Assembly (NCBI GenBank): GCA_963281255.1
Contig: OY725504.1
Location: forward strand, 2,232,001-2,296,000
Direction: 5' to 3'
Length of the DNA: 64,000 nucleotides
Source of the DNA: Aphrocallistes beatrix
Taxonomy: Eukaryota > Porifera > Hexactinellida > Sceptrulophora > Aphrocallistidae
This document shows, piece by piece, positions 55,993-64,000 of the stretch; within the stretch, counting starts at the first letter, position 1; each line of letters begins with the position of its first letter. The position numbers were made by a program, and so were the translations under genes. The notes under the pieces were generated by a model. The model ran no database searches. It was not told where the DNA came from and saw nothing but the letters and a program-made list of their open reading frames with translations.

Positions 55993-56435
55993 AGCTGATT
56001 TTTGGCATGCGGGAGTCTTTTAGCTATTGCTCCAGTGTCTGAGTTCAGACGAAAATGTCCACTCATCATGGAATTATGAGGTCATTGTCCCCTTTTTTCT
56101 AATTAGAAATTCAAACATTTCTTCTTTACTATGTCAACGCAGGAATGTAGCGATATTTCATTGGCTCTACACAAAAATCATTCATTGATAACATTTATAG
56201 TTAGGCTTAAAACAGCTTATAAATTCGCTAAAATTGTCTTTTAAATTCATATGATGACTAATCAAAGTTTTAATAACGGATGTATGCACTTTGATACCAT
56301 TTTTATATATGCTGGTATACTTTCTGAAAGTATATTCTGCATTGTTAATGATTTTAACTTGATTGTATTAATCCATTCGGTTATTACTGTAACTGTGAAA
56401 TAGTTTAGGGCGGCCAATCACGGCTATTTCAGATA
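55993..56435. repeat. Family 1 Helitron fragment joined to a half cargo palindrome
   Basis: 55993-56120 matches family 1 in plus orientation. At about 56130 it switches to one arm of the cargo (CTATGTCAACGCAGGAATG ...), which carries the intact TTAA site used elsewhere by a family A element. Both parts are decayed. Confidence 0.65.
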
Positions 56436-56439
56436 GGCC

Positions 56440-56493
56440 TGTTGCATGAGAAATTGACCCCCATGGGAAAATGACTCCCCTTGTATATAGGAA
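56440..56493 (+). repeat. Left terminal inverted repeat of Ginger-like copy 1
   Basis: 54 bases identical to the inverse of 63250-63303. It includes GGGAAAATGACTCCCC. Confidence 0.95.
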
Positions 56494-56963
56494 TCTACTT
56501 TTTGGAAGGTTTTATTCTTTCTATTGGTACAGAAAGTGATGTTTCCAGATGGGAGTGAACATTCTTAAAAATGCCCACTGAAAACAGAAATAGCGACTAT
56601 ACTCCAGCTGTACCATGATTCAGATCATCCTGGCCAGAATGCTACACTCAACAATATTCGCAGAGAATACTATTGGACTGGAATGTGCGAGCAAGTTAGA
56701 AGCTATGTAAGTAGTATGTTAATTTTAAAACAATTGTTAGTTAGGGCTGTAATTCTAGATGCTATATAAAATTTCGAAATCAGGTGATACATTGTGTGAA
56801 GTTTCCAATGCATATCTTTAAAAAGTGTACTATTGAGTGATCTTTTCGCATAGGTAAAAGTTGTGATAAATGCCAAAAGGAAAGGGATCCAAATACGAAT
56901 ACAAATCGTCTACTCCAACCTATACCACCTCCAGAAAGGCCATGGCAACATATCGGAATGGGC

Positions 56964-58891
56964 TTAAGGATACCGCCCTCGAAAAATCTTGCCTGGCGTA
57001 AAAAAAGAGGCAAAATGTTTTATTGCTAATTTCATTGTATTACTGATCGGTCTACCATCTGATAGCACTATTTGGACAGCAATTTTTTTTATTTTTTGTG
57101 AAATAACCCCCTAAAGTTTAGCGTCAATAAAAATTGAAAAATTATTGTAGGATTTTAACTGATTTACCAATTAGTTTTTAACTTATTTGATATTTTTTTG
57201 ATGATATGAACCTTAACATTGTTTTAGCACCTTTGGACATTATAAAACACATTATAAAAAAGATTTAAAAGAATGGGCAAATAAAATCCAAACAAAATAG
57301 CTCTATAAGGGAGTTCATTTATATAATCCTCGGGAAATCGCATGTTTAATCTCAGATATTTAGCGATCACTGGGTAAGAAATAAAATTCTGATCGTTTCA
57401 AAAAAAATTTGTTCGGATCCGACCATTTGTTCTTGAGATATCGCATATTATAGGTAAAGTTCGGCCATAATATCCCTCTATGGTCCCGAAAGAGGCTGAT
57501 GTCATATCTTAAAAACTATTGTAGATATATAATATATTATATCCTTAAATAAAAGGATATATGCGAAAATATATAGGTTCCTCGACCATTCCTTTGTCAA
57601 AAAATAAATAATTCTCGACTTATCATTGATTTAATTGTAATACAAATTCTATGGAGAACTTTGAATCTATTGGAAAATGGCGAATCTAATCATTAAATAT
57701 GTGTCCAAATTTAGCTATTATGCTAAATAGTGAATACAATTGCCGTTAATAATATGTACAGAAAAATTGGAGAACTTTTGATAATTATTTTGAAAGTTCT
57801 GGCCTTGGACCTCGCAGATTCGGTCAAACACCCCTATTTAGGGCCAAAAAGAGATATCTCTCTATCTTTGTAAATACAAGTCCAAATTCTTAGTTCTCAC
57901 TTCCTAATATACTTTGTATGAGTGTACATATATGATTCTTTGATAATAATTGTACCACACCCTATGGAATGTTAAGTTTTAGATTTTTGTCATGTGATGA
58001 CGTAGCATTTTCGAAAATCTTAACTTCGAAACTAAAAGTCGTGGACTTTCGCTCTAACTTCCTAATATACTTTTTGGAAGATTTTTATTCATTCTAAACT
58101 GATAGATTATACTTCGCAGTGCCAGGAATATGAAATATTATCTACAATTATCTCAAAATATTCGGAGTTAGGGGCCTCAAGGAAATTTGTGGATTTTGAG
58201 GGTACTTTTGCTATTTTTGATAAATATTTGGCTTTAATATACCTAAATCAGCAGTATAGATGTGAATAAATGTCTGTGGATGCTTATGTGCATTATTAAT
58301 AACTCATTTTACATTCTTCTTAACACCTAAACTTATAATGTCCATATCTCGGGACTTTGAAATTTCAAAATTGACCGTCTTTACAGAATTATTTCTCAAA
58401 TTTGGTTTGAGGTAGAAGTTTAAAAATTTCAAGAGTTGTTCCATATCATTAGGCGATGAACGTAGGACCACCATTTTTTGGATATATTCTTTTATTCATG
58501 AATTCCCCCAAAAACAGACATTTTTGGCCCTTTTTTTTCGGACACCGATAAAATTTACAATATTTGTCATTTTAACTTTCTTCTGGTCCTATGAAGTTGC
58601 AAATATGCTAGACTATCTATGATTCGATTTTGGAAGCGTTTGATTCCTTGGTATGTCCTAAACAATTCATTGAGTGCCTAAATTTCTACCATTAAGATGT
58701 GCTAGCGGAAAATTAAAAAAACAGACTTTGAGACACTGTATCTCAAAATCTAGAAATGAGAATCAAAAACGGTTTGGATAGTGCTAGTATTTCTTGATGG
58801 AGATACCTCCCCACGCTTAACATCTCTTATAGCTCTACTTTCATCGTATGCTGTAATGCAAATCATGTTTTTTCGAGGGCGGTATCCTTAA
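56964..58891. mobile_element. TTAA family A element inside the Ginger-like integrase exon
   Basis: TTAA at 56964-56967 and 58888-58891, ends GGATACCGCCCTCGAAAA and inverted. Removing one TTAA plus the element restores the integrase frame across the site (GLICNL), so the insertion postdates the gene. The two arms are long and imperfect. Confidence 0.92.
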
Positions 58892-61714
58892 TCTGTAACC
58901 TGCCAATGACTCAAGATGGCTATTTCCATCTATTAGTTGCCGTTTGTTATTTATCTAAATATGTAATAGCAAGACCGCTGAAATCGAAGTGCACTAAAGA
59001 AGTTATTGACAAGCTACGTTCTATATACCTAACACTTGGCATCCCTGAAATCATTCAGCATGATCAAGGTCCAGAATTTCAGAGTAAGGTTGGTAAATAT
59101 CACTTTTCGGATAATAATGTTACCACCATAGTCTAGTTGTGAAAAAAGTTATTTGAAAGTATTTGTTTGTAGGAGTTCAAACAATTCCATGAAATTCTAA
59201 AAGTAGACAACCGATCAACAGCAGCGTATCACCCACAGAGTAATGGCCTAGTGGAAGCAGGAAATAAGATCTTGAAATGGTAGTAATTGAATATTTTTAG
59301 ATAGAAGTTTCTTGGATAACTATTCAATAACTTATATTTATTTAGCAAAATCGAAAAGTTTCGCAACGACGTAGACATTGAATGGACACAACGGCTTGAC
59401 GAGGCATGCTTAGCTGCAAACACACCTCAAAAAATCGACTAAGATTACCCCATTTAGATTAATGTTTGGCCGAGATTGCAATCCGGCTTATCTCTTTAGT
59501 ACAAGTGGCTTAGAACTAGATGGAAATTCAAGTTCTGATCATGCTATTGAAAATAATGACTCTGAAAGAAGTGAAAACTCGTATACAGTGCCCTCTGATT
59601 CATTAGAGTGGATAGAAAGTATGGACTCCCACAGAAATAGTGATTATGGAAATGCACGTACAAATATCCTACAAGATCAAGCAAGGCAGAAACAGATATT
59701 TGATGCTAAGATTCATCGTAAGAGGTTTGTTTTTCTTTTATATAAGTTAAAATATCTCTAATAGATTTAATTACTTACATTTGTGCAATGATTATGTAAA
59801 TGAAAACTAAGTAAAATAACGAAAGGAGATATCTTAATTTACTAAAAATACATTTACTCAATTACGGAATTTCCGAATTTTCGGACAGATCGGATACATA
59901 GAGTTGTTAAAATAAGCACGGATAACATAAATTGTAGACTCAGTATTTATTATAACTCTTTCCTTAGATCAAGCATCGAGAAGTCAGATAACGTGCTTAT
60001 CCGTAATATCAACAGAGACAAAAAGCTGCCTGGGACAAAATCACAACCTAAATATTTTGGGCCTTATCCAGTTCAAAGAGTTACAAAAGGCCATGTTGTT
60101 GTTGATAAGGAGAAAGGGAAAAAATCGAAAAAGGTGCCATTCCATCTCACCAAAAAGTATTTGCAGCGTATTTCACAGGTACTATATTTTCCTATCTACA
60201 CAAATATTAAAATACTACTCGATTTTAAGTATCTGTCATGGCTATCCGTTAAATGTTATGAGATAGCGAATAGATGTATAATATTACGTGTATATATCAA
60301 AGAACCAACAATTGATTTGTAAAATAACAATTATTTAGACTCATCACACTGTCGTTCAAACTACTACATCGACTACATCGACAAATCAGAATTCTCAAAA
60401 GCGAAAAGCATCCAAAAAGCTAAAACAATGCAAGGTTGGTTGGTTCATCATCAACATTTTTATGTTTACAGATTTCATATTTAAATTGCGTATTTGATAC
60501 ATTGCACGAATGTATACGTGTACAATAATCGGTAGCGTAAATCTCCCTATGCATGATACTTCAGTATGTTAGATCATTATTCTCAATTCTGTAGTTTCAA
60601 TCTTCGCCAACTTCCTCCTCAATGTCGTTTGAATGTTCCAACTCGAAATTAGATGACTTGACTACTAATTACTTCTCTAGCTCTAAATGTAAGTAAGTAA
60701 TATAGTATTTTGCAAAGGGAATCAAAAATAATAAAATTCCGCGAAATACTAGCTAGCTATTAGATGTACAAGGTACATATTAATTAAAAGATAAAATATC
60801 ACAAAAAATTCAAATTTTATAAAATCAGAATGCTAAAAAATATTATTTGATACAATTAATCCTTAGTCGAAGTGTACAACATTCACACAATTAAAATATC
60901 GTTCAGGTTTCAAACACCTATCCGTTCAAATTTTATTCTTAGTCAATTATTTTAAGGTGGAGATGGTACTATTGGTTCGATGGTAGAAATATTTGAATCT
61001 TATCCCAATCTTCCTACCTATGATGAATACCTGGAAATTATAAACAGCATCAAACCTAAACTTGTAAATGCGTTGAAAGAGAACTCCTACATCTCTGATT
61101 TACATTGACAATTAGATGAAAAATCTAAATATCTGAAATTCAATGATCTCATACCATCCAGAGACTTCAGTTGAATATGCTCTGAAAGAAAAGGTTGCTT
61201 GCCTGGTTTCCAAATGGTATAATGAACATCTCGAAACTTGTCAGATAGATATAGATGAAAGACATAAATGTGACTACCCCTTGGCTGTTCTATTACCTGT
61301 GGTACTGGAAAGTATTTCGAATTCTAAACTTAATTATATCGATTCTGAAGATGAGGGAACAAAAGATATTCAACTAAACTCGAACTCGGATATTGCTCAA
61401 GAGTGCTATTCTCACGGTGTCGCGTCTGAACTTGAAAAATTGTGTCCAATTTGGCAAGGGGAATTTAACCATATCCTACATGTAAACACCTGTTCGATAG
61501 ATAATGTAATATCACTGATTGGTTTAAATAAAGTTAGCATAGAGAATGCAATAAAATTCACCGGATTCACACCTAATACAGATGGAGAACATTTTTTGTC
61601 ACTAATTCATGACCTCAAGTTCGATGAACTTCGACACTACATTGCAAATTTAATCAATATTCCGCTTACAAACGAAATAATAGTTAAAAGTATAATTTCT
61701 TTGGTTCTGAGGCA

Positions 61715-62259
61715 TCCTTACTATTAAAACTCGATTAATGTTTGTATATATATATATATATATAACTCTGTAACGAATTGATTGAAGAAACTGCCAGGCG
61801 TAGAAAGCTGATTTTTGGCATGTGGGAGTCTTTTGGCTATGGCTCCAGTAAGTTCTGAGCTCAGACCAAAATGTCAACTCATCATGGAATTATGACGTCA
61901 TTGTCACATTTTTAAAAGTTAAGCAACACAGTTATTCGGGCATAACTCAGCCATTATAGGAGATAGAAGGCTGATTTTAATAGAATCTGTATACTAACAT
62001 ACCTCACATATGATACGACCTTCATCAAAAAATGATGACTCATCACTTTGTTATGACGTCATCATTACGCATCAAAAAATTTTAAATTGACAAATTTGGT
62101 GATTTTTCGAGTGAAATCGATTTTAACACTAAGACGGACGTATTTAGAGAGGTTATCTCCCTTATAATTAACCAATGTGATCCCAGGCGACCGAAGCGAG
62201 CCTACGGCGGACACGAAGTGTTCGCCAGCCGCGCAGCGCAAGCAAGCGAAGCGCGCTTG
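61715..62259 (+). mobile_element. Helitron-like family 1 copy inside the USP-like region
   Basis: TCCTTACTATTAAAACTCG after A, GCGAAGCGCGCTTG before T, 545 bp. It splits the protease-like domain between the Cys box and the zinc ribbon. Removing it leaves a frame that is open through the junction into LLRKFRLSNDVY. Confidence 0.9.
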
Positions 62260-62961
62260 TTAATAATAAAACTTCTTCGAAAATTCAGGCTATCTAACGA
62301 TGTTTATTCTACGACGTTTAAATGCTACAGCTGCTGTGATACATTTGATGCTAGTCTTCAAGTCGGCAGCTTTACTAAAGTCACCTCTACATTACAAGAT
62401 TGCATTGATAAGAAGATAATTCCTGCGAATTGCAAAAGATGCCAGTCAGACAAATCTAAACTTGAATTACTCTCTGGTCACTTCCAAAATATACCAACAA
62501 TATTCGTAATAGAACTTGGACATATCTCTGAATCAAATTGTACACTTAAAATGGGTGATATTGATGAGTCAATCTATATTGCTAACAATGAACGAACCCT
62601 ATGCTACAGATTGGCAGGATATACTTTATCTATTGGCAATCATTTCTATTTAATGATATACCAGAATGGTGTTTGGTACAAGTATAATGATCTGCTGTCT
62701 CCTAAAATATCAGAATGGGAGAAGAACACAACTTTGGGGAAACTGAATTCAGTGTTTACTTACTACACCCTGAATTATGTATTTAATCTACAAAATGATG
62801 TTTGTTATCTGTAGAATTTATTGTTGCAAAAACTAAAATATGTTAATAAACTTATTACTATATTGTACCAGATTGTATGAGTTTATTTACACAATAACAA
62901 CACTGTGTAACATATGCCAATACTTTCCTATTTTCTTTATTTTATTACTCATGATAAGTAT

Positions 62962-62983
62962 GCTACGGAACATGTTCCGTAGC
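62962..62983. other. 22-bp perfect palindrome
   Basis: GCTACGGAACA followed immediately by its inverse complement, lying between the transposase stop codon and the right TIR. It could be a subterminal protein-binding site or a transcription-end hairpin; neither is shown. Confidence 0.7.
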
Positions 62984-62991
62984 AAGTATAC

Positions 62992-63116
62992 GAAATCACC
63001 ACAGGAAGATGTAATAGTGTGATAGAATACTAAATATTCTAGATGCAATTGTCATCCCTTCCAATTAGGAAATCACCACAGGAAGATGTAATAGTGTGAT
63101 AGAATACTAAATATTC
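62992..63116. repeat. 48-bp direct duplication near the Ginger-like right end
   Basis: GAAATCACCACAGGAAGATG through AGAATACTAAATATTC occurs at 62992-63039 and again at 63069-63116, nearly identical, followed by shorter CTAAATATTCACYAAGATGA repeats. Confidence 0.9.
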
Positions 63117-63249
63117 ACTAAGATGACTAAATATTCACCAAGATGATCAATACATTAAATAGTAGAGGGGAGTCATTTTCTCACGCACCTATCGTAGGAA
63201 TATGACCCCCATATGAAAATGACTCCCCCTAATTATTGAGTATCCATGG

Positions 63250-63303
63250 TTCCTATATACAAGGGGAGTCATTTTCCCATGGGGGTCAATTTCTCATGCA
63301 ACA
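63250..63303 (-). repeat. Right terminal inverted repeat of Ginger-like copy 1
   Basis: Exact inverse of 56440-56493, ending TCTCATGCAACA before the GGCC duplication. Confidence 0.95.
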
Positions 63304-63307
63304 GGCC

Positions 63308-64000
63308 TAGCTACACCTAAGTATATAGGAGTACCTATGAATTAGCGTATAGTACTGATCCTATTATTTCTTATCTGTGTTATTAGCTATCAATAAACTA
63401 CTATTTATCAACTGCCTCTTCACATAAGATAAGAAATAATCACATGGCTACTCCCTATGGGAACCTGAGTATTCCGCCCCTACAGACTGGGGAAAGAATA
63501 GCTTCGTGGGAGAAACTATTTCGAGCTGCCGTGACGTCGTTACTTGCACAGGAGGGAGGCGAGAAGTTGGCAGTTGGATTACTTCCTGCCTATGTATGCA
63601 GAAGGCCAGCGGAGAGAGAACTCGTCAAATATATCGTCAGCGAAACTACAAAGCTCGAGGAAGCATTTCAAATCCTAATCAGCAACCTAGATCCACCTAT
63701 CGATCCCCAACAGTCAATAGTAAACTTGTGCCGCAAAGAATGAGAAGCCGGTGTCTTGGTGGACGATTATTTTTACTCTCTGAGGACTGCGGCAGAGGAA
63801 GCAGGCGCACCCTTGCGTATGGCGTGCTTGTTGCTAACCGGACAACTTCCGCCAGCCGTTCAGAGCCACATTAAGGAGTGGATTAACGGTAGAGAGGAGG
63901 TCACCAGGGCTACAGCAAGGGAATTTATCATTTTACTAGTACGGAGGGTATTGACCGAGAAGGGGATAAGCCTAGATCTCGGATACCGCAGCATGAATCG
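63308..64000 (+). pseudogene. 5' end of a second Gypsy-like element (LTR remnant and gag), cut by window end
   Basis: The gag frame starts ATG 63444 (MATPYGNLSIPPL). It is clearly homologous to the start of the element at 25123 (both share GGEK, LPAYVC and RPAERE motifs). It has one in-frame TGA at about 63741, after which GVLVDDYFYSL and APLRMACLLL continue in the same frame to the window edge. Upstream, 63308-63430 contains CACCTAAGTATATAG, similar to part of the 25151-25313 LTR, and TTCACA before a presumed primer-binding region. The LTR start would lie at or beyond the Ginger-like right end, so that element probably inserted in or next to this LTR. Confidence 0.8.

Follow-up and report, generated by a model that had tools for sequence, protein, structure and literature searches.

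Ginger1 DNA transposons carry terminal inverted repeats (TIRs) of ~40–270 bp with the termini TGTNR, generate a 4-bp target duplication of CCGG or CCGT, and encode transposases of which all but one of those described possess a C-terminal OTU or Ulp1 domain; a role in DNA repair has been suggested for such isopeptidase-type domains (Bao, Kapitonov and Jurka 2010, PMC2836005; statements from this paper, and from the two others cited below, refer to excerpts of their text). An earlier note on the DNA studied here had taken the pairing of Ginger1 with OTU or Ulp1 proteases as known, in agreement with this source. Here we describe an element at positions 56440–63303 of a 64,000-nucleotide stretch from the sponge Aphrocallistes beatrix (the window, G000:C18:2232001-2296000), whose transposase, as judged from its sequence, is probably a Ginger-type one fused to an isopeptidase for ubiquitin (Ub) or ubiquitin-like proteins (Ubl). 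We put at about two in three the probability that its C-terminal domain is a catalytically competent domain resembling the ubiquitin-specific proteases (USP) and serving transposition; that ubiquitin rather than SUMO is the target is less certain. Such a fusion suggests that these elements need ubiquitin-type tags to be stripped when moving.

The C-terminal domain as part of the transposase

The C-terminal domain belongs to the transposase, as the earlier note had assumed, because a relative of the window element (L027, G000:C3) holds H2C2 (E 2.3e-13), rve (1.4e-12), GPY/F and the C-terminal domain in one 911-aa frame, with TIRs of ~227 bp and a GTTC duplication. H2C2 and DDE were identified by Pfam, and GPY by eye or pattern. 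The same layout was found in the public protein P0005 (897 aa) and in P0007 (849 aa, one end cut), and P0003 and P0004 carry most of it. The fusion of integrase and domain is old, since the best full-length identity of P0005 to this genome is 53% (73% at most in short pieces). Another public protein, P0020, by its source from the hexactinellid sponge Oopsacas minuta, shares 47% identity in its integrase part; some of the DDE core is absent, and the sequence terminates right after the NTC box, thus covering no more than the domain's beginning. Ginger1 transposases have a YPYY motif upstream of H2C2; L010, L014, L027 and P0005 show a YP start together with RRK/RKK residues, which might be its counterpart.

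To describe the family, the genome (100.5 Mb, 28 contigs) was searched with the C-terminal frame as protein query, which gave at least 152 matches (best 150 of 10135 candidates scored), many of them in the Helitron-like part of the query (residues 1–60) and the remainder in the domain. Of the regions that contain domain matches, 20 stretches, each 9.9 kb long, were examined; together with the window they yielded 18 elements with both ends, and the C-terminal domain lies inside the TIRs in every one of these; L020–L022 show the left end only within their stretches. Identical 4-bp duplications flank 16 of the 18 (the exceptions being L010 and L028). The duplications begin with G in all 16 cases and end with C in 15, giving GNNC (GGCC in five; GGTC, GTTC and GTAC in two each; GCAC, GTAT, GCTC, GAAC and GCGC once each), and the wider target site is TAGNNCTA in 7 of these 16 elements. 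The TIRs reach 258–398 bp in L009–L013, a few flanking bases included. The window family and its closer relatives have TGTTG termini, and L023–L025, L027 and L028 have TGTTT. A TIR pattern search allowing at most one mismatch found 33 ends in the genome, against none for the reversed control pattern. Two window-family TIRs only 116 bp apart (G000:C1:8456956-8457071) form a tiny non-autonomous derivative. Spread into viral contigs was rejected, since none of the 75 pattern-matching stretches in one IMG/VR scan was confirmed.

The intron-split coding parts of the window lineage might suggest that the domain is a separate host gene, or a captured host exon beside an integrase remnant. The single frames of L027 and P0005 and the position of the domain between the TIRs contradict this reading, which we rejected as extremely improbable; the 126 genome matches obtained with the domain of a second carrier (L038, see below), in which one copy may count repeatedly, also stand against it.

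Identity of the C-terminal domain

A profile of 18 domains was compared by hhalign with 7 USPs, 5 OTUs and 3 C48 proteases, all from the same genome. The score against USP was 35.1 (P 4.4e-4), and none of 150 column shuffles reached it (highest 25.2; failed runs, if any, scored as zero), while the other comparisons gave 14.0 for OTU, 15.7 for C48/Ulp1 and 12.9 for a reversed profile. An earlier run with 12 domains (one row lost) gave 34.3, 12.4 and 14.7 for USP, OTU and C48, respectively. The USP alignment pairs the second CxxC, the core strand 'IPPLLILEVGHL' with 'LPPVLLIHLKRF', and the His box, 'YxLxGYTIxxGxHF...WYKYND' with 'YQLFAVSNHTG..GGHYTAF...FYTFDD'. Taken by itself, the C-terminal half scored 34.4 against USP, a value reached in none of 300 shuffles (highest 21.2). 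By this profile comparison, the domain appears USP-like rather than OTU- or Ulp1-like.

The described Ginger1 transposases would lead one to expect an OTU or Ulp1 domain, an identity that we rejected on the near-chance hhalign scores for both, obtained with small profiles. By eye, the listed OTU matches (best 150 of 263 candidates) and C48 matches in the genome avoid the 18 elements, and the Cys-His-Asp/Asn order seen here is unlike that of Ulp1, in which the catalytic order is His-Asp-Cys. This identity is very improbable.

Several results weigh against the USP-like assignment. The hhalign probability is just 33.5 (53 for the C-terminal half), from profiles as small as those named above and with OTU and C48 lacking a positive control. 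The global alignment with USP leaves the Cys box unpaired; tested alone, the box pairs NTC with NTC at a score equalled by 34 of 200 shuffles. Since the Cys box is thus at chance and the C-terminal half is significant, the assignment to USP depends on the half with the His box, and the Cys box counts as motif evidence only. Pfam UCH (cut-off 23.9 bits) matched only one of 12 members (E 0.048), and lower E-values were obtained by Zn_ribbon_3CxxC in three of 12 (best 2.2e-4), by the ZNF451 zinc finger (0.028) and by Herp-Cyclin (0.031). On the favourable side, a phmmer search of the PDB with the window frame returned two sequences only, both TssM, at non-significant E-values of 2 and 2.2. These two matches were not repeated, since profile A1 and the domain consensus found nothing in the PDB, profile A4 found RNF38 on top (0.21) and no protease, and L014 found non-proteases only (best 0.11). 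In addition, the public protein P0014 has Leu in place of the conserved His. An NCBIfam search gave no lead on the C-terminal domain. The HMM comparison with C19, OTU and C48 that the earlier note had called for, and its USP-type assignment, therefore held in part: the profile–profile scores favour USP, and a significant Pfam match to a protease was not obtained. TssM itself is a USP-family enzyme (PMC10643670). In USP-type deubiquitinases, an 'aromatic gatekeeper' adjoins the catalytic His (PMC10643670), a feature that the aromatic residue after the His here (HF) fits.

Residues were counted with the domain HMM, independently of motif choice, on 99 public proteins and all examined loci. In the public proteins, leaving out a spurious second stretch of P0005, the Cys is present in all 17 that reach it, the His in 12 of 13 and the Asp/Asn in 12 of 12. 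In the locus frames, overlapping loci and near-copies included, the corresponding counts are 34/36, 36/36 and 35/35. The conserved His lies 15 model positions upstream of the conserved Asp/Asn. Furthermore, among seven copies the proportion of nonsynonymous differences (pN, 0.21–0.51) is below that of synonymous ones (pS, 0.71–0.86) in 21 of 21 pairs, with ratios of 0.28–0.64 that are rough because synonymous sites are at or near saturation; protein change smaller than saturated synonymous change indicates purifying selection. Frames of 429–448 aa remain open in several copies. The domain is maintained by selection, beyond mere carriage.

These counts bear on the possibility that the domain is a USP-like pseudoenzyme, a module merely binding Ub or Ubl. 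The Cys box region that is not significant in the alignment, P0014 without the His, and two locus frames without the Cys speak for such a module; conservation of all three residues in the public proteins down to ~30% identity speaks against it, and we consider it rather improbable. A minority possibility of somewhat greater weight is an isopeptidase for SUMO or another Ubl of the USPL1 (Peptidase_C98) kind, and no deubiquitinase. The compact size, the NHF, the aromatic-[ND]-D/G-L/M motif after it and the short spacing from Cys to zinc part are reminiscent of USPL1. A SUMO target would also be parsimonious, given that part of the described Ginger1 elements have Ulp1, a protease of the SUMO type (PMC2836005). 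Against USPL1, no Pfam C98 match was found in the 12 members or in the genome, with weak matches filtered out; this search hardly amounts to a test.

In a cut-and-paste element with a catalytically competent USP-like domain, binding and cutting at the TIRs would fall to the integrase part, which would also insert the element into GNNC sites; the 4-bp duplication is observed. The C-terminal domain would then strip ubiquitin or a related modifier from the transposase itself or, alternatively, from chromatin or repair factors present in the transposition complex or at the insertion site, and removal of the tag might stabilise the transposase or free the joined product. Judged from the motifs, the catalytic residues would be the Cys of NTC, the His of HF and the Asp/Asn of Y-[DN], and the Cys4 zinc ribbon may represent a short 'fingers' module.

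Layout and decay of the window copy

The features of the window copy are collected in Table 1. Its TIRs show no mismatch along 54 bp (60 bp counting palindromic flanks), and GGCC is present at both element borders. Plus-strand exons encode H2C2, the DDE integrase core, the GPY/F motif and then the C-terminal region. The window's own frames matched Pfam H2C2 (PF17921, E 1.7e-13, frame 56569-56769) and rve, the latter at 32.8 bits, barely above the cut-off of 32.6 bits; five other window frames had no match in the same search. The TIRs with their duplication, the succession of HHCC, Gypsy-like DDE and GPY/F, and the order of the C-terminal motifs had all been read correctly from the sequence alone.

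Table 1 Features of the transposon copy in the window (window positions)
Feature	Positions	Strand	Remark
Left target duplication	56436..56439		GGCC
Left TIR	56440..56493	+	starts TGTTGCATGAG; truncated, longer in relatives
H2C2 zinc-binding exon	56569..56712	+	Pfam; exon ends approximate, by eye
DDE exon, start	56855..56967	+	CDKC, then GMGL at the Asp position of relatives
Nested TTAA-flanked insert	56967..58887		28-bp inverted repeats; interrupts DDE exon; foreign to element
First DDE exon, remainder	58887..59087	+	includes QHDQGPEF; PF00665, E 8.5e-8; exon end approximate
DDE exon with Glu motif	59175..59280	+	NGLVEAGNK; ends approximate, by eye
Integrase core end and linker exon	59345..59725	+	ends approximate, by eye
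GPY/F exon	59967..60175	+	FGPYPV at 60056-60073; ends approximate
Linker and N-terminal USP-like part	60955..61715	+	Cys box NTCSIDN 61485-61505, Cys codon 61491-61493; start approximate
Nested Helitron-like insert (A|TC...CTTG|T)	61716..62259		splits USP-like domain; foreign to element
USP-like domain, remainder up to stop	62260..62814	+	
CYSCC	62323-62337	+	within USP-like domain
CKRC	62431-62442	+	within USP-like domain
Core strand	62488-62523	+	NIPTIFVIELGH; within USP-like domain
GNHFY	62635-62649	+	within USP-like domain
WYKYNDL	62674-62694	+	within USP-like domain
Subterminal repeats, ~51 bp	62989..63116		in relatives part of long TIR
Right TIR	63250..63303	-	ends ...CATGCAACA
Right target duplication	63304..63307		GGCC

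The window copy is a dead, inactive element. Compared with the relatives L009, L010, L012 and L013 at ~97–99% identity, its first catalytic Asp is replaced and its C-terminal domain is frameshifted. Directly after the left TIR stub (after 56493), 587 bp of L010 are missing, a deletion that takes away most of the longer left TIR and the first exon. The TTAA-flanked insert (~1.92 kb) sits inside the DDE domain, and the Helitron-like insert (~0.54 kb) separates the Cys box from the zinc part. The coding range 61143-62814 given by the earlier note covers the C-terminal domain and, because of this second insert, also contains foreign sequence.

The TTAA insert resembles a piggyBac- or Kolobok-type non-autonomous element, and a relative of it (94% over 1.8 kb) lies ~1.2 kb past the L009 element. 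The Helitron-like repeat carries a GC-rich 3' hairpin; its kin lie at window positions 56023-56111 and beside L010 and L013, and the repeat is widespread in the genome (matches to query residues 1–60). Directly to the right of the element, window positions 63387-63743 hold a frame resembling retroelement Gag (MATPYGNLSIPPLQTG...).

Elsewhere in the genome, L050 (G000:C4:959300-963900) and L051 (G000:C8:2429300-2434000) contain repeated frames of ~1000 aa ending in OTU. The OTU matches, at least 149 in number, had seemed to be possible Ginger1-OTU elements; in these two no integrase was recognised by eye, and they apparently represent a further type of DNA transposon that bears a deubiquitinase-type domain. 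At G000:C17:3630818-3668145, 15 matches to UCH, the family of ubiquitin-specific proteases, lie in a tandem cluster.

A second integrase lineage and comparison with known systems

The same C-terminal domain was also found behind a divergent integrase, in the 813-aa frame of L038. Pfam gave rve at 6.3e-5 and 23.6 bits, below the cut-off of 32.6 bits, and zf-RING_16 at 0.0037; we take its cysteine clusters to resemble PHD/RING and CxC. L052 and L053, copies of L038, share 96% identity across 3.6 kb, and their ends are perfect inverted repeats of 42–45 bp with TATA at either side, flanks that are palindromic and hence indistinguishable from the repeat itself. The 126 matches of the L038 domain include the window and all 20 examined stretches. 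Compared by features, L038 and L052 appear to form a second, Ginger2-like integrase lineage. An integrase tree (84 rows, 109 columns; without P0020 and P0004 for reasons of coverage) shows two marked clades of 5 and 6 rows, with too few columns to place them relative to Gypsy-like rows and P0021. This public protein of 605 aa has an integrase, with no reverse transcriptase domain listed for it; its end resembles what we take to be the start of Ulp1 (WLNDQVF), and it is apparently a Ginger1-Ulp1 relative.

We see even odds that the domain represents an unnamed family of compact USP-like isopeptidases, a portable transposon module on Ginger1-like and Ginger2-like integrase lineages whose Ginger1-like fusion recurs in public proteins, including one of a glass sponge, and which would be a third fold beside OTU and Ulp1. 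If so, the recruitment of OTU, Ulp1 and USP-like domains would indicate that integrase-driven cut-and-paste transposition generally depends on taking off ubiquitin-type tags locally. If unrelated folds that share one chemistry have been recruited several times, this need would become testable, and the open-frame relatives of several lineages in one genome provide material for a direct test. The domain would also widen the USP family. Among the papers listed from open-licence literature, with Repbase and Dfam outside the search, no Ginger-type element with a USP-like domain was found; such elements may be catalogued as 'Ginger' with the domain unnamed.

With Ginger1 (PMC2836005), the element has in common TIRs, a 4-bp duplication, TG...CA ends, H2C2 with Gypsy-type DDE and GPY/F, a protease-type C-terminal domain, and introns in some families. 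It differs in its target (GNNC, not CCGG/CCGT), in its USP-like domain in place of OTU or Ulp1, and in the TGTTT start of some families in place of TGTNR; the 54-bp TIRs of the window copy are within the Ginger1 range, whereas those of L009–L013 are partly beyond it. Since target and C-terminal domain depart from the definition, the element appears Ginger-like and yet no strict Ginger1: the earlier label stands for a Gypsy-integrase-like DNA transposon and fails, by its target, for Ginger1 in the strict sense. L038 and L052 share with Ginger2/Tdd the TG...CA ends and TATA at both sides, compared with the Ginger2 target RTATAY; they differ in the start of L052 (TGCTA, against TGTNR) and in the protease domain, which the excerpts of PMC2836005 do not mention for Ginger2.

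More distant systems also join a transposase to such enzymes, and the claim of a third, independent pairing proved too strong in their light. One sentence in PMC2836005 mentions a Trichomonas vaginalis transposase_11 protein with a Peptidase C19 domain; it likewise combines transposase and USP-type domain, and differs as a transposase_11 protein of a protist whose element is not described in these excerpts. Helitrons carry VTD and OTU deubiquitinases, one Helitron VTD having been shown active (PMC9741609); they too are transposons with a deubiquitinase, but rolling-circle ones, and VTD has an Asp-x-His motif, whereas the His stands ahead of the Asp/Asn here. With USP (PF00443) and USPL1 (PF15499), finally, the domain shares the NTC Cys box, two CxxC pairs, the core strand, and an HF/HY box after which an aromatic-rich stretch runs up to [DN], and at ~265 aa it is shorter than the 7 USPs compared (311–406 aa).

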